Made by a program: the position numbers and the translations under genes
Assembly (NCBI RefSeq): GCF_000189635.1
Contig: NW_002476452.1
Location: forward strand, 124,001 to 188,000
Source: Tetrahymena thermophila SB210
Taxonomy: Eukaryota; Ciliophora; Oligohymenophorea; Hymenostomatida; Tetrahymenidae
Reading direction: 5' to 3'
DNA: 64,000 nt
Shown here: piece by piece, positions 933-49,000 of the stretch
How the letters are laid out: each line of letters begins with the position of its first letter
Position numbering within the stretch: position 1 is the stretch's first letter
The notes under the pieces: model-generated
Database searches by the model: none
Told to the model about the DNA's origin: nothing
What the model saw: the letters and a program-made list of their open reading frames with translations, nothing else

Positions 933-3900
933 TCAAAAAAAAAAATATTTTTTCCATTATTGAAAAATAACTAATCTTTTTAGTTTAAAACATTTACTCT
1001 TTAGTTTCAATTCTTGTGATTCATTTAATTAATTAGCACTGTAGAAAAATTAATTTAAAAATAATTATTTAAATTAAGAGAAAAAAATGAAAAATTGTAT
1101 TAAGAATAAAATAAGTCAAATAATAAGTTAATAAATAAATTAAATAATTTATTGCTTTAAATTTATTTTTATATTAAAACTATCACAATTTAAAATAAAT
1201 TACTACAGCTCAAGGATCAAAAAATTTAGATTAGAGTAAATTGTTAAAGCAGAGCCTAAGTGTTATGCACCTATTGGGCCAATTTAATTTTCACTTTTAA
1301 ATATTAAAAAAAATATATTAATTGATTAGTTATTTAGCTTGAAAGAAAAAAGGAAGAAAAAAATGAGATAATAAGAAATTAATAATCAAAGTAAAAATTG
1401 AAAAATGAGTTAAATTAACAGAGAAAAAATTATTTTTAGAATAAAAAAGCATATTAATCAAATTAGTAGCTGATTAATAAATAAATTAAAAGAGTTGATT
1501 GGTTTTCAAATTCATTTTTATATTAAGAAATATCATAATTTATGACAAAAAAACTGTTTATACCTAATATCTAGTTTCAAATTTGTGAGAATATTGCAGT
1601 TTGCTAAAGCAAAGCCTAAGCCTGATATACCTTCATCACCAATTTAATTTTTACTTTTTAAATATTGATGATAATATATCATTAATTAGTAATTTAGAAG
1701 GAAAAGATAAAGAATAGATGTAAAATAATAAGAAATCAATTAATAAATAATCAATCAAAGCAAAAGTTAAAAACTTTGTTGAATTTAGAGAAATTAAAAG
1801 TGCAAACAGAATAAAAAAGTTAATAAACATATAAATAAATTAAAAGAGAGAGTTTTATTATTTCAAATTTATTTATATATTTAAAAATATCATAATAAAA
1901 AATAAAAAATTTACTGAAGATAAAGTTTCAAATTTGAGAGATTAGTGCACTTTGCTAAACTTTAACCTAAGCTTGATGCACCTTCGCCACAAATTTAACA
2001 AGACCTTTTTAAACATTGAAGAAAATTTAAATAGTCAACTAAAGGGAAAAATAAATTAAAAAAAAAACATGAATTAACAAGAAATTAGTTTAGAATGAAA
2101 GAAATAGTTGTAAATTAAAAAGTGAGTATATTAATTTCGCAATAAAAATAAATAATTTACTCAAAATAAAGTGCCAAATTTTATAGATTAGTGCATTTTG
2201 TTAAACTTGAGCCTAAGCCTGATGTGCCTTTATCACTAATTTGACAATCACTTTTTAAATATTGAAGAAAATATAATTTATCAACTAAAGAGAAAAAATA
2301 AGTAAACAAAAAGCATGAATTAATAGAAATTAGTAAAAAATAAACAATTTACTTAAGAATAAGTGTCAAATTTTAGAGATTAGTGCACTTAATTAAACTT
2401 GAGCCTAAGCCATGTGCACCTTCGTCACCAATTCGATTAGAACTTTTTAGATAGTGAAGAAAATATAATTAAAGGAAACAATTTTCTCAGATTTTTAGAT
2501 TTCAAAATTGATTTTTTTGAGATTTTTAGAAGTATTTAGATTTAAATTACATATTTTAAAAAACTTTTATATTTTATATAAATTCAAATTTAAGATTTTG
2601 TTGAATTGTTAAATTATAGGTTGTTCAAATTACTAAAAAATCTAAAAATTACTGTAATTTAAATTAAAGATTTTTAGATTTTAGATTAATTCTGATATAT
2701 ACATCTGCGAAAGGACACAGATTAGAATGAAAAATCATTTAACAATAAGAAATATGTAAATCCTTTAAAAAAAGTTGAAGGTAAAAAAATTAGTTAAATT
2801 AAGAGCTAAAAGTTATAATCAGAATTAAATAGTAAAAAAGCTGATAAATAAATTAGCTAAAAAACTTTATTATTATAAATTAATTTTAAAAAATAGAAAA
2901 ATCCAAAAGAAAAAACTGTTTTTACGAAAGATTAAGTTTATAATTTAAGATTTAAGCAGGGCATAAGCTTAATGCACCAGTTGCACCAATTTTATTTCTC
3001 CTTTTTAAATATTGAAAAAAACATTATAATTAATTTAAATAAATAAATAAACTGTTTTACTGGAGATTAAGTGTTAACTCTTCGAGATCAGTACAATTTT
3101 CTAAAACAGAACTTAAGCCTGATACACCATTATCGCCAATTAAATTATCACTTTTTAAAAAGAGAAGAATTTATAAATAATTAGTTATTTAAAAAAGGAA
3201 AAATGTAGTCAAATTATGAAATGAAAAGAAATTAATTAACTATTAAATAAAAAACAAATTAAATTTAGACAAAAATAGTATAATCAGTAGAATAAAAAGA
3301 ATATTGATCAAGACTAATAATTAAATTAATTAAAATATTTTTATTGTTTTAAATTAATTATAAAATTAAAGATATCATAATTCTAAACAAATAAACTGTT
3401 TTTACCCAAGTTCAAGTGTCAAATTTGTGAGATCAGTGCAATTTCCTAAAGCAGAACTTAATCCTAATACTCCTTCATCACCAATTTTATTGCCACTTTT
3501 TAAATATTGAAGAAAAATAATTAATAAAAAGGAAAAATAAAGAAAAACATGAAATTATAAGAAATGTATTCATAATCTCTTTATAATTTAAGATTTAAGT
3601 TTTGTTTTAAAGTTTTTAGTTTATCATTTAATTAATTTTCTATTAAAAACTGTAATGAAAATTTTATAAAAAAAACTACATTTTACAATAATTTAAGACC
3701 TATTGATTTTTTGAGTTAAAAATTTTTTTTTATTTAACCAAATTCAAAAACAAGATAGATTGATAAAAAGTGGCCTTTATTAATGAGGATATAAAATAAT
3801 CTGGATAATGCTAATAAATAAATTAATAAATTATAAGAGTTTTAATTTTATAAATTCATTTTTATAATTTATTTTATCACAATTCAAAAGAAAAATCTGC

Positions 3901-6895
3901 TTTTACTTGAGATAAAGTATCAAATTGGAGAGAATGTTGAACTTTGCTAAAGCAAAACCTAAACCAGATGCCCCAAAAGAGTGAATCCAGTTATTACTTT
4001 TTAAATATAAAGAACATATAATTAATTACTTACTCAATTAAAGTGAAAATATGAAGAAAATATACGAAATTGTAATAAATTAATGAAGAATTAAAGCAAA
4101 AGTTGAAATGAAATTAAAAAATAAGTTAAATTAAAAGAGAAAAAAGTGTATTGAAAGTAAAATGCAAATAAAAAAAATTAAAAGCTAATTTATAAATTCA
4201 AAGAATTTTATCATTTTAAATTGTTTTTTATAATAAATTTTATTTCAATCCAAAGCAAATAAACTATTTTTACTTGAGAATAAGTGTCAAATTTGAAAGA
4301 TAAAAGCACTCTGCTAAAGCAGTACCTAAGCCTGATACACCATCATCACAAATTTTACTTGAACTATTTAAATAAATAAAATAAAAACTTATAAATAACT
4401 AAAATGAGTTTTTTTTGAAATTCATTTTTAAGTTAAATAATAAATATTACAATCCAAAATAAATAAACTATTTTTACCTTAGATCAAGCTTTAAATTTGA
4501 GAGATTTTTGATCTTTGCCAAAGCATAACCTAAGTCTAATGCGCAATCATCACTAATATGACTTGAACTTTTAAAAAAATAATAATTAAATAAAAAGTTT
4601 AAAAATGTAAAAGAGAATTTTTTTTTAATTCATAATTTTGTTAAAAATCAAAAATAAATAAACTATTTTTACCTAAGATTAAGTTCTAACTTTTAGAGGT
4701 TTTTGATCTTTGCAAAAGCTGAACCTAGGTTTGATGTACCTTCAAAATTCATTTTATTTCGACTTATTAAATATCAAAGAAAAAAGATTTGTTAAAAAAT
4801 AATTATAAAAGTAAATAAATAAATCGGAGGAGGGAGGGAGGGAGGGTGGCTATATATGACTAAAAATAAAGATTTTATTGCATGCTAAATTAAAGGAGTG
4901 GTTGGTATGGGTAGTTGAAATGTTATAACTTTATTTTTTAATGCTTTGCATCAATAAAATAAGGTTGATTTTTGATGGACTAAGCTTATTAATTTAATGT
5001 GTTTTTTATTATCAATAAATAAAATTTAAAAATTTGTTTTAAAATAATTTTTTTAAATAAATAAAATTAAATCTTTATCTCAACATAAAAACTAGATTCA
5101 TATGATATATTAAGGTATAGCTAATACTTAGAAAAAATAATACTTTTTGGATAAAAGAAGGGGGAGCATCCAGGTCTAAGTTTAATTATTGTCTGAAAAT
5201 CTTTTTTGTATTAAAAAATATTCAATTACAAAACAAAACAAATAAACTATTTTTACCTAAGATGAAGCGTTAAATTTGAGAGATTAATGCATTTTGCTAA
5301 AGCAGAACATAAGCATGATGTACCATTATCACCAATTATATTTCCACTTTTATTTTTAAATATTGTAGAAATAATAGTTAATTAATCAAAGGAAAAAAAT
5401 GAACATGAAAAATAAGATATAATATAAAAAATTAATTGAAAACCAAATGTAAAGTTAAAAATTAAAAAAAGAATTAAGTGAAGAGAAAAAAAATTTTAAT
5501 CAGTAATTAAAAAATCAAATAAATAAATTAAAAGAGTTAATTTTTGAAATTTTTTTGTTTTAAAAAATATCATAACCCAAAACAAATACACTGTTTTACT
5601 TAAGGTAAAGGAGTAAATTTGAAAGGTTATTGTTTTTAACTAAAGCAGAAACTAAATTCGATGCACATATTGAATCAATTTTCTCACCTCTTTTAAAATA
5701 TTGAAAAAATATAATAAGTTAATTAATAAAGAAAAATACTAAATAATTAAAAATTTAATTATTATATTAAAATATCATGATCCCAAACAAATATACTACA
5801 TTGATTCAAAATAAAATGTCAAAATAGAGAGATTTTAACACTTTGCTAAAGCAGAGCCTAGGCATGATGCACCATTTGCACCAATTTAAGATTTACTTTT
5901 TAAATATTAAAGTAAATATATCATTACTTAGTTAGTTAGAAAGGATAAAATTATAAAAGAAATCAATTAATAATCAAAACTAAAGTTTAAAATTAAAAAA
6001 ATGATTTAAATTAAGAGAGAAAAATATAAATTAAAAATAAATCAAACAAATAAAATATTAATAGATAAACGAATTAAACAATCTTTTTGTTAGAATTCGT
6101 TTTTAATATTAAAAAATATCATAATCCAATACAAATAAACAGTTTTTACTTGAGATTAAGTGTCAAATTTGAAAGATTAGCGCAGTTTACAAGAGCAGAA
6201 CCTAAACTTGATGCACTTTTGTCACTAATTTAATTTTCACTTTTTAAATATTGAAGAATACATATTTAATTAATTAGTAGTTTAAAAGAAAAATTAAATA
6301 ATAATAAATCAACTAATAATCAAAGCCAAAGTTTAAAATTAAAAAATGATGTTAATTGAGAGAAAAAAAGTAAATTTAGAATTTAAAAATAAAATAAAAC
6401 AAATTAAAAGCTTTTTAATAAATAAAAAAAAATTTTTTTGTTTAAAATTCAATTTTATATTAAAAAGTATTACAATCTTAATATAATAAACTGTATTTAC
6501 CCTAAATAAAGTTTTAAATTTGTAAGGTTAGTACATTTTTTTAAAGCAGAATTAAAGCTTGATATTCCTTCATCTCCAATTTTATTCCTACTGTTTAAAT
6601 ATTAAGAAAAAAATATAATTAATTAGTTAGTTAGAAGGAAAAAAGGATGAGGAAAAATATGAAATAACAAGAAATTAATTAATCCTCAAACTAAAAGCTG
6701 AGCATCAAAAAAGAGTTAAAATAATTAATAATATTCATATGAATAAAAAATAAAATAAATAAATAATAATTGAAAGATCTGCATTTAAATACATTGATTT
6801 ATAAATTTGAATATAATAAGATAAATAATAATAAATTTAATATACGAAAGATCAATGTCTAGAACTGAATGAGATTAAAGAGAAGAGTTTAAAAA
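933..6895 (-). CDS. LRR protein gene with one LRR per exon (17-exon array; 5' end unresolved)
   Basis: Reading right to left, LRR exons are 6501-6590, 6150-6239, 5800-5895, 5600-5689, 5257-5346, 4673-4762, 4478-4567, 4274-4363, 3907-3996, 3406-3495, 3061-3150, 2926-3000, 2353-2442, 2161-2250, 1915-2004, 1564-1653 and 1207-1293. Fourteen are exactly 90 nt; the others are 87, 75 and 96 nt, all multiples of three. Every exon is one base, whole codons, then two bases, so all introns are phase 2. Each encodes one LRR of about 30 residues of the type N-x-IGDEGASGLGSALAKC-x-NL-x-NL-x-LxL (ribonuclease-inhibitor-like). The last exon 933-1038 ends in a Lys-rich tail with KLKRLV and TGA 933-935. A tentative upstream exon is 6846-6895 (ends SVLDIDL). 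No start codon was found. Introns are homologous to each other, so exon plus intron duplicated as a unit. No in-frame TGA occurs in the array. Such proteins usually mediate protein binding; the partner is unknown. Confidence 0.8.
4826..4849 (+). other. G-rich tract inside an LRR-gene intron
   Basis: A run of GGA/GGGA units in otherwise very AT-rich DNA, within the intron between LRR exons 4673-4762 and 5257-5346. It contains at least four G-runs and so could form a G-quadruplex on this strand. In the gene's own transcript it is a C-rich tract. Confidence 0.6.
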
Positions 6896-9200
6896 CTTTT
6901 TTTATTTAGAAAAATAAATATAAAATATTTATTAAAAAAAATGATAATAACAGTTTATAGCTTATAGTATTGTTTATTCTATAATATCATTTATTTTTTT
7001 TCAAGAATATTTATAGCAATTTATTTATACAGATTTAATTAATTAAAAAATTTATTTAGTTTTAGAGTTTACTTAGATAAAAAGATCAAATAAATATTAA
7101 TAAGATCATAAATTATTTTATATAATTTACTTTAGACAATAATATAATCAAAAATTTAGATATTAATATCATTTATTATATTTAAATCAATTTATATACT
7201 TAAAAATATTGTACTCATCAAAAATGGAAATAAATAAGTGAGTGAGTATAACCAAATGCCATTCAAAAATTTATTAATTTGATATCACTATTTTTATGAA
7301 TTGCTGATTTGTTTGAAAAAAATTTATGTTTTAATTAATTAATAATATTTATAATTATAATTAAAATCAATTTTTATAATTAATTTTTCAATCAAAATTT
7401 TAATTAATTTTAAACTTATTGCTCTATTAATATTTTTGATGTATATAAATTCCTAAAAAAATATCATAATAAGGTAAATAAACTATATTAAAAGATAAAA
7501 TAAAACCAAATTTTTAAATATGAGAAAAACAAAGGTAAAAATATTCTTGATAAAAGTGGATTTAGTTTCCAAAAAGGAGAAGGAGGATTAATAGGGATTA
7601 TCAAATCATTAATAAAAAACATAATTTAATTTCTATTAAACAAAGTAAATCAAGACAATATACCTTAAATTTTTTAGTTTAGTAGTAATTAATTTAATTT
7701 AAACTAAGAAACTTATTTTATTTTTTCTTTCATTAATAATTTAAAATAATACTTTGTAGAAATTTTATGAATAAATTCATCCTGTCTGTTTCTCTGTTAA
7801 TATTATTGTAAATTACTTTCATTTTTATTTGTAGACTTTAACTAGACATTTAGAATATATTTGAACTTTAATTAAATTTAAATTTTAAAACTTTAGCATA
7901 ATTTAAATGATGAATTCTATTAAAAACAAACATATATCAGCTAAATATTTTAAATGAATATTTTACTTTATTTTATAGTAAAATGTTTCTAAAATTGTTA
8001 AATTTATTATTTTATATAACTATATTATGAATAGCAGACAGTAAATTTACAAATAAATACTTGGATACATATATAAGTACTAATGAAAATTAGGTCTACT
8101 TTAATTATTTACTAAATTGGAAAGTGTTTAAAAATAGTTTACTGAATTTAAATTTTATGATACCAGATATGGATAGTCTTCAATCAATCAGTCTACTTAA
8201 TTGATTTTCTCATTTTGTACTATAATTTAATTTGGCATATTAAAAATAGATAAAGAACTTATTCTAAATAAGTACCTTAATTACTATATTAGAAAATAAT
8301 TATAAATTTTCAACCAACTTTCATGGTTGTGTTACCCAAATCTAATTATTTTATTGAGATGTTTTTTTAAAAAGAATATTATAAATTAAACAATCAAAAG
8401 AATTTTTATAAAATTTCATTTTTCATTTATTTTAATTCAAGAATTTTTGGCTAACCATAATTCTTCAATAAAAAAACTGAATCATATTCCACTAAACAAT
8501 TAAAATCTTCAATAAGTAATTAAAAAAATCAAATTATTTCATATTTATTTTTTAACTGCCTCTCTCCCTCCCTATTTTACCTCAATATGAGTAGGTTTCA
8601 TTATTTTCTTACTATATTTTATTATGTGCATTTTTTGCTTTTTATTTTAATTTCAAATAAAACTACTGGCTTTTAATTAATATAGATAATATAAATGTTT
8701 TTTTTGTTTTACTAAATATAGATCTATTTTCTTATTAACTATTAATTAAAAATATATCTTAATATTTTTTTATTTATAATTTTATAGATCATTTTAAATG
8801 TCAGATTAAGATTAATGTATGTATGGTTAATGAATGACAGATATTGAAATCTATTTTTATTGTCTTTAAAGATGAACAAACAAAACGGAATTAGTTAGAT
8901 CTTTCAATAGAAATTCATTTCAAAATAAATCACCCTATTTTGATTGATTTATAATGTAATCATTTAGTAAACTACTTATTTGTTAAACTTGGGCTTTATT
9001 TAAAAAGATAGAAATGCTCTTAATTAATGAGAAAAATGGGTTTTTGTCTCATAGAACTAAATAATATATTCTTTGCATAAAACTAATTATAGTACTGGTC
9101 TTATTATTTTAAATTAAGGCAGTTAAGAAAACATAATTAATTTAGATAATAAATTATAAGAAAATAATAAAAAAGATACAGAATAAATAAATAAAATCTA
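6896..9200. other. Gene-poor region upstream of the surface-antigen gene
   Basis: No supported exon. It should hold the missing 5' part of the LRR array gene (minus) and the promoter of the surface-protein gene at 9201 (plus). The stretch at about 7575-8300 recurs downstream of that gene (see repeat). A CT-rich tract lies at about 8558-8584. Confidence 0.4.
7575..8300 (+). repeat. Diverged direct repeat, left copy
   Basis: Matches 11045-11710 in the same orientation with many substitutions and indels. Shared anchors include the stretch ending in TTTTGTACTATAATTTAATT at 8214-8233, which pairs with 11624-11643. The two copies bracket the cysteine-rich surface-protein gene about 3.4 kb apart, suggesting duplication of a flanking region, for example during expansion of a surface-antigen cluster. 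Confidence 0.6.
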
Positions 9201-10850
9201 ATGTATTCAAAAGTTTTTTGTTTGATACTTGCTTTTGCTCTATTATAGATAGCATATACAGCTGACTGTGAACGTTGTACTTTTAGTGCAGATGGAAAAG
9301 ATGATAAGGGCCCTTGTACTCAATGCGATGAAGGTACATGTACTCCAGAAAAAGGAACTATAGGAACTACTTAATTAGCTTGTTCTATTAAAAAATGTTA
9401 GGCTGGTAAATTTAGTGAAACTGGATATGATTCTGATGGAAAGGGGAAAGGATGCACTAATTGTAACCCAGGTACTTACTCTATTGAAGGTTCAACAGAA
9501 TGCAATCTAATCCCTTGTGGCTATGGATATTATAGCGAAACAGGCTACTACGATTAAAACGAAGGAAGTAGATATAATGAATGTGAGATTTGCCCATATG
9601 GCAGGTCCACCACAAAAGAAAATACAATAGGAGATTATGATGAAGATGAAGATATTATTTGTGATTTACAGTTAGAAGAATGTCCTGAAGGTACATATAG
9701 TGATACAGGTTATGATAGTGATGGAATAGGTACTGGATGTTAAAAATGTGAGCCTGGTACTCATTCAATAAAAGGTTCAGACAGGTGTTCTCTAAAAGTC
9801 TGCGGTGTTGGCACTTATAGCTCAACAGGCTATTATAATACTATAAATTATGAGAAATGTACAGTTTGCCCAATTGGTAAATCAACTGATAAAGAAATGA
9901 CTATAGGAAAAGATGATAAAGTATGTACTTTGTAATTAAAATAGTGTCCTGAAGGTACATTTAGTACTACAGGTTATAATGGTAATACAAAAGAAAGTGA
10001 ATGTAAGAAGTGTAAATCTGGTACTCATTCTTTATTAGCCTCAAAATCATGTTAACTAAGACCTTGTGACTATGGTTATTATAGTAATACAGGATATTTC
10101 AATATTAATAAGGAAATTAATTGCACTAAGTGCCCTCTAGGAAAATCTACTAAGGAACAATAGACTATAGGAGAAGATGAAAAAGTTTGTGATGTGTAGC
10201 TATAATTCTGTCCTTAAGGCAAATTTAGTTATTCAGGCTATGATTTTGATGGGGAAGGGAAAGGGAACGGATGTTCTGATTGTTATCCAGGTACTTACTC
10301 TTTAGTAGGCTCTAAAAGTTGCGATCTAACATATTGTGGTTATGGTTATTATAACATAAATGGCTATTATAATCATTCTAAAGAAGCAGAATGCTAAAAA
10401 TGCCCAATAGGTAAATCTACCCCACTAGAAAATACATAAGGAACAGATGATAAAGTTTGCAGTGTGCAATCAAATAAGTGTCCTGAAAATAAATGGAGTA
10501 ATACAGGTTATGACTATGATGGAAAAGGGAAAGGATGTAAATATTGTGAATCAGGGACGTACTCTTTTGAGGGTTCTACAACCTGTGATCTAAAGTCTTG
10601 TGGTTATAATTTTTATAGCTAAACAGGTTTTTACATTACTAATTAAAAAGAAGAATGTAAGGCTTGTCCAGAAAATACTTATACTGATGGATATATTAAT
10701 GAAAGTTTGGATGATTCAATTTGTTTATCTTATAATTCAAGTGATTGTGATGAAAGTGAAAGTGAAGGATATGATAATAGTGAAAATACTTCAAACTCTA
10801 TTATCATTAAAACTACTTTAAGTTTGATTTTATTAGTTGCTCTTTTCTGA
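9201..10850 (+). CDS. Cysteine-rich repetitive surface protein, probably GPI-anchored (immobilization-antigen-like)
   Basis: Single-exon gene of 549 residues, ATG 9201 to TGA 10848-10850. Residues 1 to about 20 form a signal peptide (MYSKVFCLILAFALL). The body is five tandem units of about 75 residues, each of two half-units built on CxxC pairs: CPEGTYSxTGYDxDGxGKGCxxC followed by CGYGYYSxTGYYxxxxxxC and CPxGKST. These resemble the Cys-rich (ephrin-receptor/GCC2-GCC3-like) repeats of ciliate surface antigens. The tail is an Asp/Ser/Glu/Asn-rich linker, then a short hydrophobic end (IIIKTTLSLILLVALF) with no residues after it, the usual layout of a GPI-attachment signal. In ciliates such proteins coat cell and ciliary surfaces and are expressed one at a time. 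The first unit is less regular. Family assignment rests on architecture, not on a database match. Confidence 0.75.
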
Positions 10851-12009: not shown

Positions 12010-12921
12010 TCATTTAAGCTAGCTAATTATATTATTTAGACGATCTCTCATATTTGAATCATTTATTTCTTCAGCAATTAACTTAGCTTTTTAATATTAT
12101 AATAGAGCCCTGTCCTGATGATAGAGATGTTCATCTTCTGCTCCTAAATTGTAGAAGCACATCATTTTAAGTTTGTTAAGTTCTTATAATTTATCTTCTA
12201 TTTCCTTTTCAGATAATTGGATGTTAGAAGGATTTTTAGCTTTTCCAGTAACTTCTTCTTCTTATTCTTTTTCGTTTTCTTACTGTTTAGATATTTCTTA
12301 TTAATCCTATTAATTACCTTGCTATAGTTCTTTTTATAGTCTTTCAATATAGTGAAGGGCTTTATTTAAACTATCTTGAGCTTTATTATGCTTGTTTAAA
12401 TTGCTTTAAATGGCAGCTTTATTAAACAAAGTAGAAATAATACTGTTTTTAGCATTAAAGTCGTTATCTTAAACTAATCTTTCTTCTAATTCAAGAGCAA
12501 AGTGAACAGCTTTCAAAGCCAAAACGTATTGCTTGCGCTTTTAGTAAATGCATGCTAAATTGTTAAATGTTAAAACTTTCATTTCTCCATATTTTATAAC
12601 AGGCTTAACAAATTTGTGAATTGATTTATGCATCAAAATATCAACAGCTTTCAAAAGAAAGTGAATTGCCTTTTCGTTATTATTGCAGTTGAAATGATCC
12701 ATAGCTATTTTATTGATAGATAACGCATAATCAATGAATTAATCAGAAAAATTAAATGGAATATCTGCATATCCTAATCCAGCCGACAAATAATCTGTGC
12801 ATAACAAAATTAATCTCTCCTAATGCAGTAATTTATTTTCAGAATTTGGATCCTTTTTCTTCTCAAATTCCATGACATTATAAAGTAAGCTAAGTATCTA
12901 GCTTCTGTCAGGTTTACTCAT
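12010..12921 (-). CDS. Tetratricopeptide-repeat (TPR) protein
   Basis: Intronless, 303 residues, start ATG 12921, stop TGA 12010-12012. At least four helix-pair repeats of TPR type are visible: around residues 65-95 (NNNEKAIHFLLKAVDIL), 110-145 (LACIYQKRKQYVLALKAVHF), 155-185 (AAIQSNLNKHNKAQDSLNKA) and 245-285 (YNLGAEDEHLYHQDRALLQY). Between repeats three and four lies a charged Gln/Glu/Lys-rich linker of about 45 residues. TPR proteins are scaffolds for protein-protein contacts; partner and compartment cannot be read from the sequence. No signal peptide or membrane segment. The frame is open with many in-frame TAA/TAG glutamines, as in its neighbours. It converges on the surface-protein gene and lies downstream of the SNARE gene on the same strand. 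Confidence 0.8.
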
Positions 12922-13148
12922 ACTGTATTGCTATAAATTGTATAATAAATGTAATTTTGCAGTTATTCTTTTAACAATTGAATATATTAAATAAATATCA
13001 GATATAAAAAAACAAAAATTAAAAATTTTAGTAGAAATTAATCAAAATGTTTGTTTATTTATTTTTTATATGTTCATTAATTAATTAATTAAAATAAATG
13101 GTTAATTAAACTAACAAAAACTCTATAAAAAATAAATTAATATTGAAA

Positions 13149-21046: not shown

Positions 21047-21994
21047 TTATTTTTAATATATCCAATAAATATGTATTATCTAACGAATTAATTAAATTAT
21101 ACTGGTTTTGTAGTAAAAAATTTTTATATTAAATTAATAAAATGCTGATTTATTTTTAATCTTTACAAAAATATTAATAAAGATAAATTTAATCTGTATT
21201 TTTAATTTAAATATTGAGTGGTTATGAGAGAAAAAATTATCTGCTTCTCTATAGAAATGATATTTTATTAATTAGAAAGTAAATAATATTTAATTGACAT
21301 GTAAAGAATCTAGTTATGCTTCAATATTTATTTAGTAATAGTTAATATTACAAGGAAAAAGAGATTAATTTAATATTTATCAAATATTTTCAATCACAAA
21401 TATTTTAATAGAAAACACAGTAATATAAAAATGGGATAAAACTTTTAGCATTAAGCTTGAATTTTTATAATTATTATAATAAATAAATGCTTAAATTGTT
21501 CATTAAAATAGGATAATGTGGTGAGAAATTAATCAAGAATTTATTTTTGTTTTAAAGAATAAAATTGTATAATGGCATAATTAATTTTTATTTTATTTAT
21601 ATATAATACTTCTTAAAGGATGAATAATCTTTTTTAATCAATTTACCTAATTCCTAACTTTAGATTACTTTGGAAGTATTTCAAAAAATTTTTTTTATAT
21701 TAAAAGTTCTAATTAATTAAATTAGTTTTTGTGGCTATCAAAGATTTAGATATAAATTCAATATTAAATTTATTCACTTCATAAATAGTACGAAATTTTT
21801 TTTTTTTTGCTGAATTATTGTGGTAATTATATAAATCAAGTAAATAAGTATCATTAATATAATTTTCATTATCTTATTATATTAAATTTACCAAAACAAA
21901 ATATAAAAGATAAAATTATTAACAGATTTTATTTTGAATTAATATTTAAATATGTTTTTTATTTTGTTTATTATCTTTTATTCCTTGCTCCATT
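21047..21994. other. AT-rich spacer between carboxypeptidase genes
   Basis: Promoter of paralogue 1 and 3' flank of paralogue 2. Nothing else recognised. Confidence 0.5.
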
Positions 21995-23504
21995 TCATTT
22001 TTATAAAAATCTAATAACTGCGTGAGAAACAAAATATATGTTTAAGTAAAATAGTATCTAGAATTCTAACATTTTTAAATAGCTTTCTTGGCTTATAAAA
22101 TTATTAATTAATTGCAAAGCAACTTCTGGCTAATCTTTAGGTACCATATGGCCTGCATTATAAACAATATAAAATTAAAATTTGGAAACTCCTTTTATTT
22201 TTCCTACTTCTTTACCGTTTAATTTAACAGTTTAATATTAGGCAACCTAAAATTAACTCTATTACTTCCAATTAAGATTATTAACCCAATTTTCTGTTCC
22301 ACTATTTTGATTTAATTATTTTAAATTAATTAATACAAGGTTATTTATAGTAAATTATTTGATTACATATAATTGCACATATAGTCTAGATCACCATTAT
22401 ATATCAAGACCTTTAGATCAGCATTAACAATACTAATAAGATCATTGGTTGAAGAACGATTTTCAAGATCTGATAAGGCACTGTACACATTGTCAACACA
22501 AGCACTCCATGTTCTACCTTAAACTCCTAATACTTATTACACATCTTCTCTACTCAAGAATTTTTGAACTTTATCATCATCAGCATCTTCAGAACATGTA
22601 GGATTAACACAAGGAGTTTTATAATTATAAATATCAAAGTTATTCTTTTCTGTAATTTTGTTAAAAGGAGCTTCACATGCATCTGTTAAGATCTATATGG
22701 GAGCTCCAGTTTTTATATACTGTTAGCACACTGCAAATTATTATTAAGTAGCAGTGTAGGTATCTAAATCTATCAGATTATATTTATAAGCATATTCAGC
22801 ATAAGCAGGTTGCTAATAGTAAGGGTCAACCTAATTAATTTAATTAATAAATAAATAAATTTGTTACTTTTACATTTAATCAAGTTTTTTAATTCATATC
22901 ATTCAATTAAATTTTAGTTGAAAGAATATTTTTTTACCCAACCATTGCCAATAGCAACACCACGAAATTTAATTTAGAGATCTCCAGATTTAATGATTAA
23001 AGAGCCTATAGCAGGAATGTATTGGCCTGCATAAGATTCACCAGCGATATAAAAATCGCGATTAACATATTTAGGATAGGTTTACAAAAAGCTTTAAATG
23101 AAGTCATGCATTTGTTTTGCGACCCCTTCTTCAGTATTAGGTATTTAACTTGAACCTAAGTTACTGAATCCTGTTCCAATCGGCTGATCTACAAAGAGAA
23201 CATTAGCTTTATTATTCCATGAATAAGGGTTCGAAGTAAGAGTGTTATCTTAAGTAATTTTATAAGGACCTAATTCCTCAAAAAGTCCAAGCATAGAAGA
23301 GCACCCAGGACCACCATTTAACCATAATATTAGTGGATCACTATTTTTATTTGAGCGAGATTCAAATAAAATGTAGAACATATCACTGTCGCTATTTATC
23401 TTGATCAGCCCTGGATAGAAAGTTTCATTCAAAAAAATAGAATTTTGTAAAGCAACCGAGCTGCAGATAAATAATGTGATTAATAATGCTTGATTTGCTT
23501 GCAT
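21995..23504 (-). CDS. Serine carboxypeptidase, S10 family (paralogue 2)
   Basis: Exons 22938-23504, 22367-22830 and 21995-22301, total 445 residues. The start at 23504 is chosen because a signal peptide ([16 protein letters not shown]) begins there; an in-frame ATG at 23597 would bury it. Exon 1 is 567 nt, identical in length to both paralogues. Catalytic motifs: [25 protein letters not shown] and [12 protein letters not shown]. Same two intron positions and phases as its paralogues. Predicted secreted or lysosomal carboxypeptidase. The C-terminus runs about 30 residues past the end of paralogue 3, ending in a hydrophobic stretch; whether this is translated tail is uncertain only if an unseen splice exists, since the frame is open to TGA 21995-21997. 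Confidence 0.9.
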
Positions 23505-42680: not shown

Positions 42681-43060
42681 TCAAATAGATTTTTGTAATA
42701 AATTGCTTTCTATAAAAGTAATTTGTTTAATTAAAGCTTCAAAGTGAGGGTGGGTATGATCTACCAAAGAATGACCCTCTTCGCTGAATAGATATGTCTC
42801 AATTTTATTTTTATTAAATACATTTTGAGCATGAAAAGCAATACTTTATTAGTAAGGAACTCTCTTATCTTTAACTCCTACTAAATTTAGAGTAGTCACT
42901 TTATTTATAAGGCTCATAGGAGATTACTCAAACATTAATTTATAGTCATCTCCTGTTAAGTTCCAATTCATTTCCGTTCCAAGGCATTCTGCTAAGGACC
43001 ACTCTGGAATATCTAAATTAAAATTGAAAAAATAAATTTTAAACAAAATTAAATTTTATT

Positions 43061-43103
<43 letters not shown>

Positions 43104-45712
43104 TTATTACCTGATGAATTCAATGAGAATGGGAAATTTAAAACAGCATTGCATATTACACAGCAATTAAACTTTTCTGAATGCTAAGAAGCAATCATAG
43201 CAGCTAAATATCCACCATAACTGCCTTTATTTAATATAAATAAATTAATTCGTTTATTTAAGATAATGAATGAAATTTGTATATTAATTATTAATATAAA
43301 AAAATAATTATATTTTATATAGTAAGTACCTCCACTAATCACTACTTTATTTTTGTTGCAGATTTTCATATCGATAACTTTATCTATCATGCCTACTACT
43401 TCATTTGAATCAACTTTTCCTATGTTTTTAAGTAATTTATTTATAAAATCCTAACCAAAGCCTGCAGAGCCTGTAAAATTAGGAAGAAGTAAAACATATC
43501 CCTAAAGCAAATAGTATAAATTAATAAGAGCAAACTCTCCTCCATAAGTTGCATGAGGTCCTCCATGAAGATCTACAATGAGAGGTCTATCTTCATCTTT
43601 ATAGTTTAGTGGATTTAATTTATCATTATTGTTGAAAAGTTGTGCTAATTCTGAAGGGATTTAGTCTCTGTTAAATTTTTTTACTCTAAGTAAACAACCC
43701 TAAGCATCTCCAGACTAGATAACTTATTCTTCAATAAAATTCAAAGCAAAATTTCTCAATTTTGAGAAAATAGAAGAAGTATTACTTGTTAAAGAAATAT
43801 ATTACCATTCAGATTTATGAACGATTTCTTCAACATCACCAATTAAATTGAAATTTTTTAGATAAGCTATGCATTTTGGTTCATAAATACTTACATAGGA
43901 AGCAAAAAGTGTATTATATCTAGGATTGTAGTGAGATACGATAAATTCTTCAGATAGAATCTTATTTTCTTTAAATTTAGCTATTTTTTTAGTTTTTGTG
44001 TTGACAATATATGAACTTGTAGAATGTCCAATTAAAGATGAAAATACATAATGAATGTTATCATTAATCCAAAATGAATTTTTTAAGTCTTTAGAATAAT
44101 TGCAAACTCCCATGAATTCTCCTTTATCAGCTAAATTTTCATTCTTTATTAACAAAATTTCTTCAATTTACCAATCTTCTGTGTTAATAATTTTTAACGA
44201 AAAGTAATTAAAATGAGTTGGATTAAAAGGTGAACCAAAATAAGCAATTTTTTTTCCATCATAACTAACGTTAGGCTTTAAAGATATTTCATCAACACTG
44301 ATCACTTTACAGTCAAATTAGTCATTCTATTCGTTTTATTTAGCTTTTATAATATATAAATTTGATTATTTATCAGTTTATTTTAATTTAAAAGTGAAAT
44401 AAAGATTAAGCAATTTTTTTTTAAATATCATAAATGCTCAAAAAATTACTTAAGTTTATTTAAAAATTTTAAAAAACTTTTGAAGAAAATATCAAGATAA
44501 TTTTCAAAACCAAAGCTTATTGTAATCTTCATAAAAAATGATAAATTAGATTATCTATCTTTTTGATAAATTTAATTTTTTTGTTTTGCTGATAAATTAA
44601 AATTTCTCAATCGATATTTTATTTTACTTAAATATTTAATTCAATCATTCAAAAACTAATTTAAAAGTTTTACTAAAATGAATCAGTTTTTGTTTTGAAA
44701 AATAAATTTTGTTTCTTTAAAGATAGATTTTAATTTAATCTTAATTTTGAGAATTATTTAAATTAATTTAAAAATTTAATTAAAAAACCAACAACTTTAG
44801 ATTAAATTTTTAATTTTATTACTTTAATCATTATTAAGCTTAGGATAGAGCTGAATTCTTTATATTTTACTGATATAGTAGATATCTATGTATCTGTTTA
44901 TAACTTAAATAGCATATTTAAATTCAGGATGAATTTTATAACCTTATAATACTATCTACTCTCCTTTATCATCTAAATATTAAGGGTAGCAAGGGAATAT
45001 ATTATCTGGAATTTTTATCTCATTTAAAGTTTTTTTTTCAACATCATACTCAAATAAATGCACTTTATTGAAGTTATCCATGTTTTCACCAAAATCTTGA
45101 ACAAATTTGAAGTTTTCAAAAGCATCTGCCAAATCTTTTTCATTTTCTACTTCAAAGAAAGATTTAGTTGTACTTTCGTTTACCTATCAAGATATTAATT
45201 CTGAATTTTAGAATAAAAATTAAAATGGAAATAAAAACCTGAGCCATATAAAGGAACTTAGTCTCCAATCTGTTCCATGAAATTGTGGAGCTTATACTGG
45301 CATCATTCAAAATATCTTTGTGAAAGCTAGATAGATTTAACTATGAAACGATGTCTTCGTTTTAGTAAACTTCTAAAATCTATTTTGTCTTTGCTTTGTC
45401 TTCTACATCTTAAATGACTACTTTATACGTGTTTTGTGGAGACTTTGATGAAATATTTGTTTTTCTTAATATTGGAAAATCATTGATTTTATTTCCTATT
45501 TAACTTTTTTCATGATTAAATTGATAATAATTAGAAAATGCATTTCTTGTATGGTATCTTTGGTTATACTAATACCAATCTAACCTTAATGTATTGTCAG
45601 AAATGACCTCCACCTAATCTATCTAATGAGAATTCAAATGAACCTTTTCCAAAAAACTTAATATCAATTTGACTCTTTCAGAGTCAATTTAATTCTACGA
45701 TATAGAACTCAT
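42681..45712 (-). CDS. Acylaminoacyl-peptidase (prolyl-oligopeptidase family S9C), copy 1
   Basis: Five exons: 45239-45712, 44823-45183, 43330-44343, 43111-43224 and 42681-43012, total 764 residues. The first 480 residues or so form the beta-propeller-like region. The alpha/beta-hydrolase part shows HGGPHATYGG (oxyanion hole), nucleophile GGSYGGYLA (split across an intron after the first base of its second Gly codon), Asp in GVKDKRVPY and His in EEGHSL. DIPEWSLAE before the Asp motif is typical of acylpeptide hydrolase. These cytosolic enzymes release N-acylated amino acids from short peptides. Intron 4 contains a (TTTA)n microsatellite at about 43057-43106. Copy 2 lies immediately upstream on the same strand. 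Confidence 0.88.
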
Positions 45713-46007: not shown

Positions 46008-49000
46008 TCATTTCAGTAAGTGCTTTTCTAAAAATGATATTTGTTTAATCAGCGAATCTACAATTGTTGGTAGACTCTCTCTTAGAGCATGATCAGATTC
46101 TGGGTAGATGTATGTTTCTATTTCAGTTCCATTATAAATTGACTAGGCATGATATGCTATGCTTTATTAGTAGGGCACTCTTCTGTCTTTAGCTCCTAAA
46201 AGGTTTAAAATGGGTAATTTATTTGGTTGACTCATTGGAGAAAATTCAAACATTGTTTTATAATCTTCACCTGTTAAATTCCAGGTCATTTTTTTCCCAA
46301 AACATTCAGCTAAACACCAATCAGGGATATCTAAATTAATTAAAGTATTTTTTAAATCAGGACTAAAATAAAAATTCTCATACCTGTTGCGTTAAGTAGA
46401 TAAGGAATGTTAACTACAGGATTTCTCATAACAGCGCAAATAAATCTTTCGTGATATCTTGTAGACAAAATACCTGTCATATATCCTCCGTAGCTTCCTA
46501 TTAAAAAAAATAGAAAAAATTAAATAAAAATAATTAGAATAGATAAATTAAATTCATTTCGATTTTACCTCCCATAGTAATTGCTTTTTTTGGATCACAA
46601 AGTTTTTTCTCAATAACTTAATCTATCATGTTAAGGATTTCCTTAGCATCAATTTCTCCTATGTTTTTAAGTAGTTTATTGATATAGTTTTAACCGTAAC
46701 CAGCAGAGCCAGTGTAGTTAGGGAGCAAAATGGTGTATCCTTAAAGAAGGAAGTATAAATGACTGATTGCAAACAATCCGGTTGAACTTGAGTGAGGACC
46801 TCCGTGAATGAAAACAATAAGAGGTCTATCTTAATCAGAGTTATTCAAAGGATTTAGTTTGTCGTTATTTTCATATAACTCTTTAAGCTCTTTTGGGATA
46901 AACTCTTTATCAAACTATTTAATTCTCCAAAGACAAGCAGTTGACTCACCTGATCTGATAACTTACTCTTCAAAATATTTTAAAGCAAATTCTTAAAGTG
47001 AAGGGAATATTGAAGAACTTCCTTGACTAAGTGTAATATATTACCAATCAGCACTCTAAACAATTTCATCTAAGCCTTTTGAAAGATCTAAGTTTTTAAG
47101 AAAAGCTAGCTAAGGAGGTCCTGCCATGTTTGTATGAGTAGCAAACAAAGTGTTAAATTTATTGTTATAATCAATCACCTAAAATTCATCCGACTCCGTT
47201 TTGTTAACAGCGAATCTTCTAATTTATTTAGTCTTTGAATTTACCAAAAAGGTACCTAGAGAGTGGCCAACAATTGTCGTTAAAACAAAATGGATGCTAT
47301 CCTTGAGCCAAAAAAAGTTCTTCAAATCATCATAAAACCCACAAATACCCATAAATTCACCTGACTCAGTAAGATTTTCCTTTCTGATAGGAATAATTTC
47401 TTCGATACTCCAATCCTAAGTATTAATAATCTTCATTCCCATATAATTCAAATGAGGAGGACTTAAAGGAGCTCCGAAATAGGCAATTTTTTAGCCATCA
47501 GGACTAACCATAGGTTTAAAAGAAACTTCGTCTTAGCTGATAACCTTAAAGTTAAGTTATTTTTTTTCATCACTTGCAGCTATTTTTAATAAACATAAAG
47601 ATAAATAAAAAATATAAATAAAAATTATCTCAAAATTCAGAAATAATTTTATTAATCAAAATAAATAAATAATTATATTTCATCAAAATGAGTGTGAAAT
47701 GTATATTCATCTTTTAGCTATTTATTTTGATTATTTGATTAATATATTTATTGATGATTAATATTTTAGATTTATTTTATAAGTAAAATAAAAATATTAA
47801 ACTAAAGAAATTAATTATTTATCGAGTAGTCAAATTATATTTTAAATGAATAAAATTAAAATAAATAATGGTTTTTATTGTTTAAGTTAATAATAATTTT
47901 ATCTTGTTTTTATTTAATTTTTGATTTATCAAATGATATTATTTTAATTTGATCAATTAATATTAGTTTATAACAAAAAATAATGAAGTAATATTTGTTT
48001 TATATTCATTTTATAAGTAATTAGTTGGTTGATTTGATTGATGATTCAATTTAATAATGAAACATATCCATTTTCTTGATGAATGTAATGATATTTTTTT
48101 TTAGTTTATTTATTTATGTATGTACTATGTATGAATGATTCAATTTTAATAAATTTTATTCTTTAATTTACAGTTTTTATTATTACTTACTAATTATTTA
48201 ATGTTATGAAAAAAAAAAATAATTACTATCATTTTTAGCATCTGATGAATTTTTAGCAGGTTTAGGATAGAGCTAGTTACGGTTTAGATTCTATAAGAGG
48301 AAAATATCAGATTACCTATTAAAACAGTGTAATATTCCATACCTAAATTCTGGGTGTAATTTGTACCCTTATAAAATAATACTCTCGCCACTCTCATCTA
48401 AATATTAGGGATTGCTTGGGAAAATATTTTCAGGAATTTCTATTTATGAAAGAGTTTAACTTTCAATATTGTATTCAAATAAATGAGCTTTTGTAATTCC
48501 ATTCATACCCTCACCAAAATCAGAATCTAGATTATATGTTCTATTCACATCATCTAAATCTTTATCTTCTTCTACTTCAAAATAGTTTTTTGTTGGCTTA
48601 GCCTTTACCTAAATGTTCAATAATTTAAACAGTAAAATAAAGTTGAATAAAATTCATGCATACTTGAGCAATATATAAAAATTTTGTTTCTTTTTTATTC
48701 CAAACTATCGCATTTCCAACGATGGGATCATCTAATATTTTTTCATGCATTTCTTAAAGATTAACTTGAGATACAATGTCTTCTCCTTTGTAGATTTCAA
48801 TCACTGAAAAATTTTTTGTCTTTGTCTTATCTTAGACTGATTATATCACAGCCTTTAATGAGCGTTCAGGTGAGTACACAGATATATTTTTTTGGACCTA
48901 AATAGGAAAATCATTCAATTTTTTACCTATCTCTCTCTTGTTCTGATCAAAATCGTAAAGATTAGAGTAATTATATGTTACAGAATCTCTAATATTGTGT

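Follow-up and report, generated by a model that had tools for sequence, protein, structure and literature searches.

A leucine-rich repeat (LRR) gene split into 20 exons lies on the minus strand of the 64,000-nucleotide stretch of Tetrahymena thermophila SB210 analysed here (NCBI RefSeq assembly GCF_000189635.1, contig NW_002476452.1, positions 124,001 to 188,000; this whole stretch is called the window, and positions are counted from its first letter). The gene belongs to the family of LRR genes with 90-base-pair (bp), phase-2 exons of this ciliate, its frame is open across a complete exon structure, its introns are homologous to those of other such arrays and the exons of its own array are strongly diverged. 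We regard it as very likely (probability about 0.88) that the gene is an old member of this family, open from start to stop, that its array arose by copying of exon and intron together, and that it would give mainly one mRNA, coding for a solenoid of 571 residues. The arrangement as such is not new, as it is already published (main text of PMC6564038); what is added for the window gene is a complete structure from start codon to stop codon, together with evidence that the array is old and not in flux.

The array was confirmed as 17 consecutive LRR exons, from 6590-6501 down to 1293-1204, each preceded by AG, followed by GT and in phase 2 at both ends (17/17), so the exons of one LRR each that the initial annotation had described are real. 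Fifteen of the 17 are 90 nucleotides (nt) long, one is 96 nt and one 75 nt, and the longest stretch of successive 90-nt exons is eight (5689-5600 to 3150-3061). Translated with TAA and TAG as glutamine and TGA as stop, the model begins with an ATG at 6990, closes with the TGA ending at 933 and encodes 571 amino acids (aa) in one frame that is open across all exon joins. No internal TGA occurs in these 571 codons, the other two frames having 12 and 29, and in the 507 LRR codons none was seen where 7 to 12 would be expected from triplet frequency. A six-frame search with table 11 gave no open reading frame of at least 150 aa, because TAA and TAG are read as glutamine here. The introns, apart from the first one, span 60 to 494 nt, with lengths of ~255-277 nt mixed with shorter and longer ones. 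The features of the gene are the following:

6991..7209, minus strand: 5' flank, with conserved counterparts (71-81% identity) at other LRR genes in the genome
6952..6990, minus strand: exon 1 (MILQNKQYYKLQT), 39 nt, with the ATG; a 56-nt intron with donor GTTATT comes next
6846..6895, minus strand: exon 2 (FLNSSLQSHSVLDIDL), 50 nt, codes for a partial first LRR and ends in phase 2
6501..6590, minus strand: LRR exon 1, 90 nt (87 nt with the downstream tandem acceptor)
6150..6239, minus strand: LRR exon 2, 90 nt
5800..5895, minus strand: LRR exon 3, 96 nt, donor 6 nt past the usual place
5600..5689, minus strand: LRR exon 4, 90 nt
5257..5346, minus strand: LRR exon 5, 90 nt
4673..4762, minus strand: LRR exon 6, 90 nt
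4478..4567, minus strand: LRR exon 7, 90 nt
4274..4363, minus strand: LRR exon 8, 90 nt
3907..3996, minus strand: LRR exon 9, 90 nt
3406..3495, minus strand: LRR exon 10, 90 nt
3061..3150, minus strand: LRR exon 11, 90 nt
2926..3000, minus strand: LRR exon 12, 75 nt, five residues fewer, frame kept
2353..2442, minus strand: LRR exon 13, 90 nt
2161..2250, minus strand: LRR exon 14, 90 nt
1915..2004, minus strand: LRR exon 15, 90 nt
1564..1653, minus strand: LRR exon 16, 90 nt
1204..1293, minus strand: LRR exon 17, 90 nt
933..1038, minus strand: last exon, TGA at 935-933 (ANQLNESQELKLKSKCFKLKRLVIFQQWKKYFFF)

Two details of the earlier description change with this model. Fourteen exons of 90 nt had been counted together with one each of 75, 87 and 96 nt; the 75-nt and 96-nt exons stand, whereas with the boundaries used here 15 exons have 90 nt and none has 87. 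The first LRR exon has tandem acceptors three bases apart, at 6590 (giving 90 nt) and 6587 (giving 87 nt), and the earlier figure was probably read from the second of them. The 96-nt LRR exon 3 (5895-5800) has no GT at the usual donor position, the next GT lying 6 nt farther on. As to the extent of the gene, which had been given as 933 to 6895, position 933 is indeed the last base of the TGA, but 6895 is the start of the partial LRR exon and not the gene end; one further exon with the ATG (6990-6952) lies upstream of it, and the gene spans 6990-933.

The array is not a product of chance. When the 64-kb window was searched at E <= 1e-3 with a profile covering exon and splice sites, which was derived from 15 window exons and refined on the family, the 17 sites were the only ones detected; across 7101-64000 no match was better than E = 0.08, and the 10 kb left of the window (stretch L009) contained no LRR exon match to the profile. 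The comparison set consisted of the window and 20 stretches of the genome, all but L009 chosen among the top-ranking of 225 matches that a part of the window gave. The profile gave 290 matches there, of which six were dropped as their boundaries could not be set, and 271 of the 284 exons with assignable boundaries are exactly 90 nt long, 90 nt being preferred where several AG/GT pairs were possible; three odd-length exons contained TGA. The introns of these arrays are mostly ~240-280 nt. Pieces of the window gene match more than 200 places of the genome each, with ~67-76% identity among the matches listed, the gene itself aside and independently of the repeat set of PMC6564038. The main text of that paper (2019) describes thousands of LRR genes in Tetrahymena whose exons measure exactly 90 bp and tens of thousands of LRR exons of the same length and phase over ten species, with phase 2 in >98% of the introns preceding 90-bp LRR exons, 1 to 51 such exons in each T. 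thermophila gene and an intron length peak near 257 bp in young T. thermophila LRR genes. Unequal crossing over is proposed there for the 90-bp exon arrays, and the youngest genes (group III) are those masked by a consensus repeat of the macronuclear (MAC) genome, with a pericentromeric/subtelomeric germline location and internal eliminated sequences (IES) or REP nearby. Judged from its divergence and its mixed intron lengths, the window gene looks like an ageing group III gene or a group II gene.

The 5' end, or head, of the model is drawn from the same comparison. A start exon of 36-39 nt followed by an intron of 55-57 nt fits 21 of 21 heads in the window and the fetched stretches, the window gene included, and since it fits all of them, unspliced read-through from the ATG at 6990 was dropped in favour of the 56-nt intron. 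The start exons together with up to ~220 bp upstream of them (6849-7209) are conserved at 71-81% identity in at least 41 other places of the genome, a lower bound as 40 of 682 candidates were scored, and the flank 6991-7209 is a probable 5' untranslated region or promoter. At the other end of the gene, a crude pattern search of the other arrays found a C-terminal ending like that of the window gene in one array only (L020); the ends of the other arrays' genes are mostly undefined, and exon counts in them are consequently approximate. Pairs of heads facing away from each other occur on contigs C30, C85, C268 and C440 and also in stretches L015 and L020, which suggests that such pairs may share two-way promoters; the words promoter and head-to-head are absent from the main text of PMC6564038. 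On ten contigs (C303, C36, C28, C440, C181, C260, C41, C85, C30 and C54) LRR heads lie within ~3 kb of the contig end, and judging from this distance, LRR genes with this head may often adjoin macronuclear chromosome ends. The assembly, 101 Mb in 445 contigs, is most likely the macronuclear genome of T. thermophila. Contig C4 carries CCCCAA repeats at both ends, and a ciliate telomerase RNA, seemingly that of T. thermophila, was found in the genome. A frame for the telomerase reverse transcriptase (TERT) agrees without any difference with chain 6d6v_A, from T. thermophila, over two blocks totalling 237 residues, the remainder of the frame presumably being introns.

It seems that the uniform phase of the array reflects the way in which it was built. 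From exon 2 onward, all 18 introns score higher against introns of other arrays than any of the 10 dinucleotide shuffles made from the respective intron, and 14 of the 18 also exceed the best of all 180 shuffles. The exons would share length and phase because the array arose by repeated copying of one unit of exon and intron, probably via unequal crossing over. The symmetry shows that the units are copies, not that skipping is intended.

This distinction matters for the idea of combinatorial splicing, in which the symmetric exons would be skipped in many combinations to give LRR proteins of varied length from one gene. The initial annotation was right that loss or gain of exons would not disturb the frame: with symmetric phase 2, pairing exon 2, the 17 LRR exons and the last exon in every forward combination gives 171 junctions (18 normal joins and 153 skips), each of which is in frame and free of TGA. 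However, frame-safe skipping joins hold for almost any such array and are not specific to splicing systems, and the symmetry is expected from tandem copying alone. According to the main text of PMC3274533, cassette exons make up 139 of the 1,474 alternative-splicing events of T. thermophila, the introns involved being the longest on average (279 bp), and the main text of PMC6142364 presents the species as the sole non-animal whose skipped exons show a 3n bias resembling that of animals (p = 2.18e-5), both of which would suit such splicing. On the other hand, intron retention is the main type of alternative splicing in T. thermophila (832/1,474) and 25-33% of the events of every type lead to in-frame premature stops (PMC3274533, main text). 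Nor is skipping tied to LRR genes in these sources, 'leucine' being absent from the main text of PMC3274533 and 'leucine-rich' and 'LRR' from that of PMC6142364, and short reads can be mis-mapped among like exons. The terms 'alternative splicing', 'exon skipping' and 'isoform' are absent from the main text of PMC6564038, and among the titles listed in searches of open-licence papers none deals with LRR exon skipping. We consider combinatorial splicing of the window gene very unlikely, and a single full-length mRNA would most likely be its main product. For the family as a whole, it is doubtful, though less so, that skipping of 90-bp LRR exons occurs throughout and causes the animal-like 3n bias in the main text of PMC6142364; LRR exons are an obvious candidate cause of that bias, as is short-read mis-mapping. 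If true, tandem exon copying gave a single-celled organism ready-made, frame-safe cassette exons, of which the window gene is one of many sources, and a link of the family to the bias would help to settle whether the arrays serve splicing or just record duplication.

We read the array of the window as old from the divergence of its exons. When exact 90-nt exons of the profile search were grouped by locus and strand (n = 271, the match with the length count above being coincidental), the mean exon identity within the window array was 0.653, the lowest of 23 groups, the others ranging from 0.767 to 0.97. For none of the 15 exact exons of the window gene is the nearest relative another exon of that array, and three of the other 22 groups likewise score zero (0/13, 0/6 and 0/2); over all 271 exons the nearest relative is in the own group for 41%, against 5% with the labels shuffled. 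In comparison with exons of other loci, too, those of the window are the most distant, and none is more than 86% identical to any other exon in the set. A scan of the introns to E = 50 found no relics of lost exons, giving three short weak matches of which one is the end of exon 2. A fast change of repeat number, as raised in the initial annotation, is thus not supported for this gene, and a fast-evolving array in which unequal crossover is changing the number now, for example between strains, is highly improbable in view of the low identity, the absence of nearest relatives within the array, the spread of intron lengths from 60 to 494 nt and the lack of relics. In favour of such a process, other arrays with the same head hold more similar exons (0.767 to 0.97) and differ in exon number, from ~4 to 19 in the fetched stretches (an approximate range, some arrays being cut by stretch ends and some maybe spanning two genes), next to the 1 to 51 per T. 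thermophila gene in the main text of PMC6564038. The number therefore does change over the history of the family.

The spliced protein matches the Pfam family LRR_6 (E = 3e-21), with no other domain recognised in it by Pfam, and Pfam recognised no family in five intron-containing frames. Sequences of 11 solved structures match it, the best being 9y6s_8O, named 'Leucine-rich repeat protein' (E = 4e-17), followed by 5irm/5irl (listed as uncharacterized and presumably NOD2), radial spoke protein 15, DRC5, RanGAP1 and others; the names of the 11 are of LRR type except for 5irm/5irl and a 'kinase domain protein'. Leucine occupies positions 12, 16, 22, 25, 27 and 29 in 14, 14, 15, 15, 15 and 13 of the 15 exact exons. 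The product is thus predicted to be an LRR solenoid of the ribonuclease-inhibitor type, 571 residues long, which would bind some protein partner.

Whether the gene is still under selection was judged against the family consensus, from which 183 codons differ with a change of amino acid and 52 without one. In simulations with an equal number of changes, the changing codons averaged 206 and 203 and the non-changing ones 40 and 43 (for two base compositions), as few as 183 changing codons being reached in 0 and 2 of 500 simulations. TGA is absent from all 15 exons, which happened in 9 and 4 of 500 simulations. If a consensus start is assumed for each exon, these figures point to weak to moderate constraint on the window gene.

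Several points weigh against the reading of an intact old gene built by copying. The intron 1 donor is GTTATT in the window gene only (the 20 other heads have GTAATT in 18 cases and GTAAAT in two), and therefore the splicing of the start exon is putative. For four of the 18 introns the best of all shuffles scored at least as high, and an intron test by E-value had to be rejected, 140 of 180 shuffled introns also matching at 1e-4. The comparison arrays were selected by their likeness to part of the window and are not a random sample, and the start of every exon from the family consensus is a simplification of the simulations. Cys19 is kept in 10 of 15 window exons compared to 97% elsewhere, two LRR exons deviate from the standard length and some exons lack residues typical of the family; these losses of length and residues make relaxed constraint or recent silencing possible. 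The unique donor, the two off-length exons and the lost residues would also be consistent with a decaying pseudogene that by chance is still open, which is compatible with membership of the family. Nevertheless, 571 codons contain no internal stop or frameshift, against the 7 to 12 TGA expected in the LRR codons, and 13-15 of the 15 exact exons retain leucine at each of the six positions, so that we hold a pseudogene to be unlikely. The preferred reading and its rivals overlap, and the probabilities given to them do not add to one.

Around the LRR gene, 7410-8337 and 8517-8840 of the window are 99-100% identical to C4:147395-146468 and 146466-146143 in reverse orientation, and from this identity the match over 7410-8840 is best taken as a recent duplication between the two contigs. 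Upstream of the LRR start codon its edge is reached after ~420 bp, it extends rightward at least to 8840, and ~179 bp (8338-8516) are missing in the C4 copy. An open frame on the plus strand (8838-10850) encodes a repeat protein rich in cysteine that appears to carry a signal peptide and a hydrophobic tail, and which we take to resemble Tetrahymena surface (immobilization) antigens. A domain scan of the neighbours covered 10 frames of the window; the 8838-10850 frame had no Pfam, NCBIfam or solved-structure match, and several relatives of its upstream DNA lie on C4 between 127 and 153 kb. The following neighbouring frames were also noted:

12010-13041, minus strand: tetratricopeptide repeat (TPR) frame
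21394-22893, minus strand: serine carboxypeptidase frame
42968-44437, minus strand: match to the prolyl oligopeptidase family (Peptidase_S9)
46477-47655, minus strand: match to the prolyl oligopeptidase family (Peptidase_S9)

Arrays of interchangeable exons are used in combinatorial splicing in Dscam-like genes, and the window gene resembles these in having many like-sized, frame-neutral exons in one gene. However, its exons are read as successive repeats of one solenoid, with no sign of being mutual alternatives. Its predicted protein is similar to ribonuclease-inhibitor-like LRR proteins such as RanGAP1, DRC5 and radial spoke protein 15, as seen in the match to LRR_6 and to solved chains, while differing from them in that no effector domain was recognised in it. 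The closest likeness is to the Tetrahymena arrays described in the main text of PMC6564038, with which the window gene shares the tandem 90-bp exons, the flanking phase-2 introns, the LRR protein, the species and the variable exon number; nothing in it is different in kind, although the window copy is more diverged than the arrays fetched for comparison.

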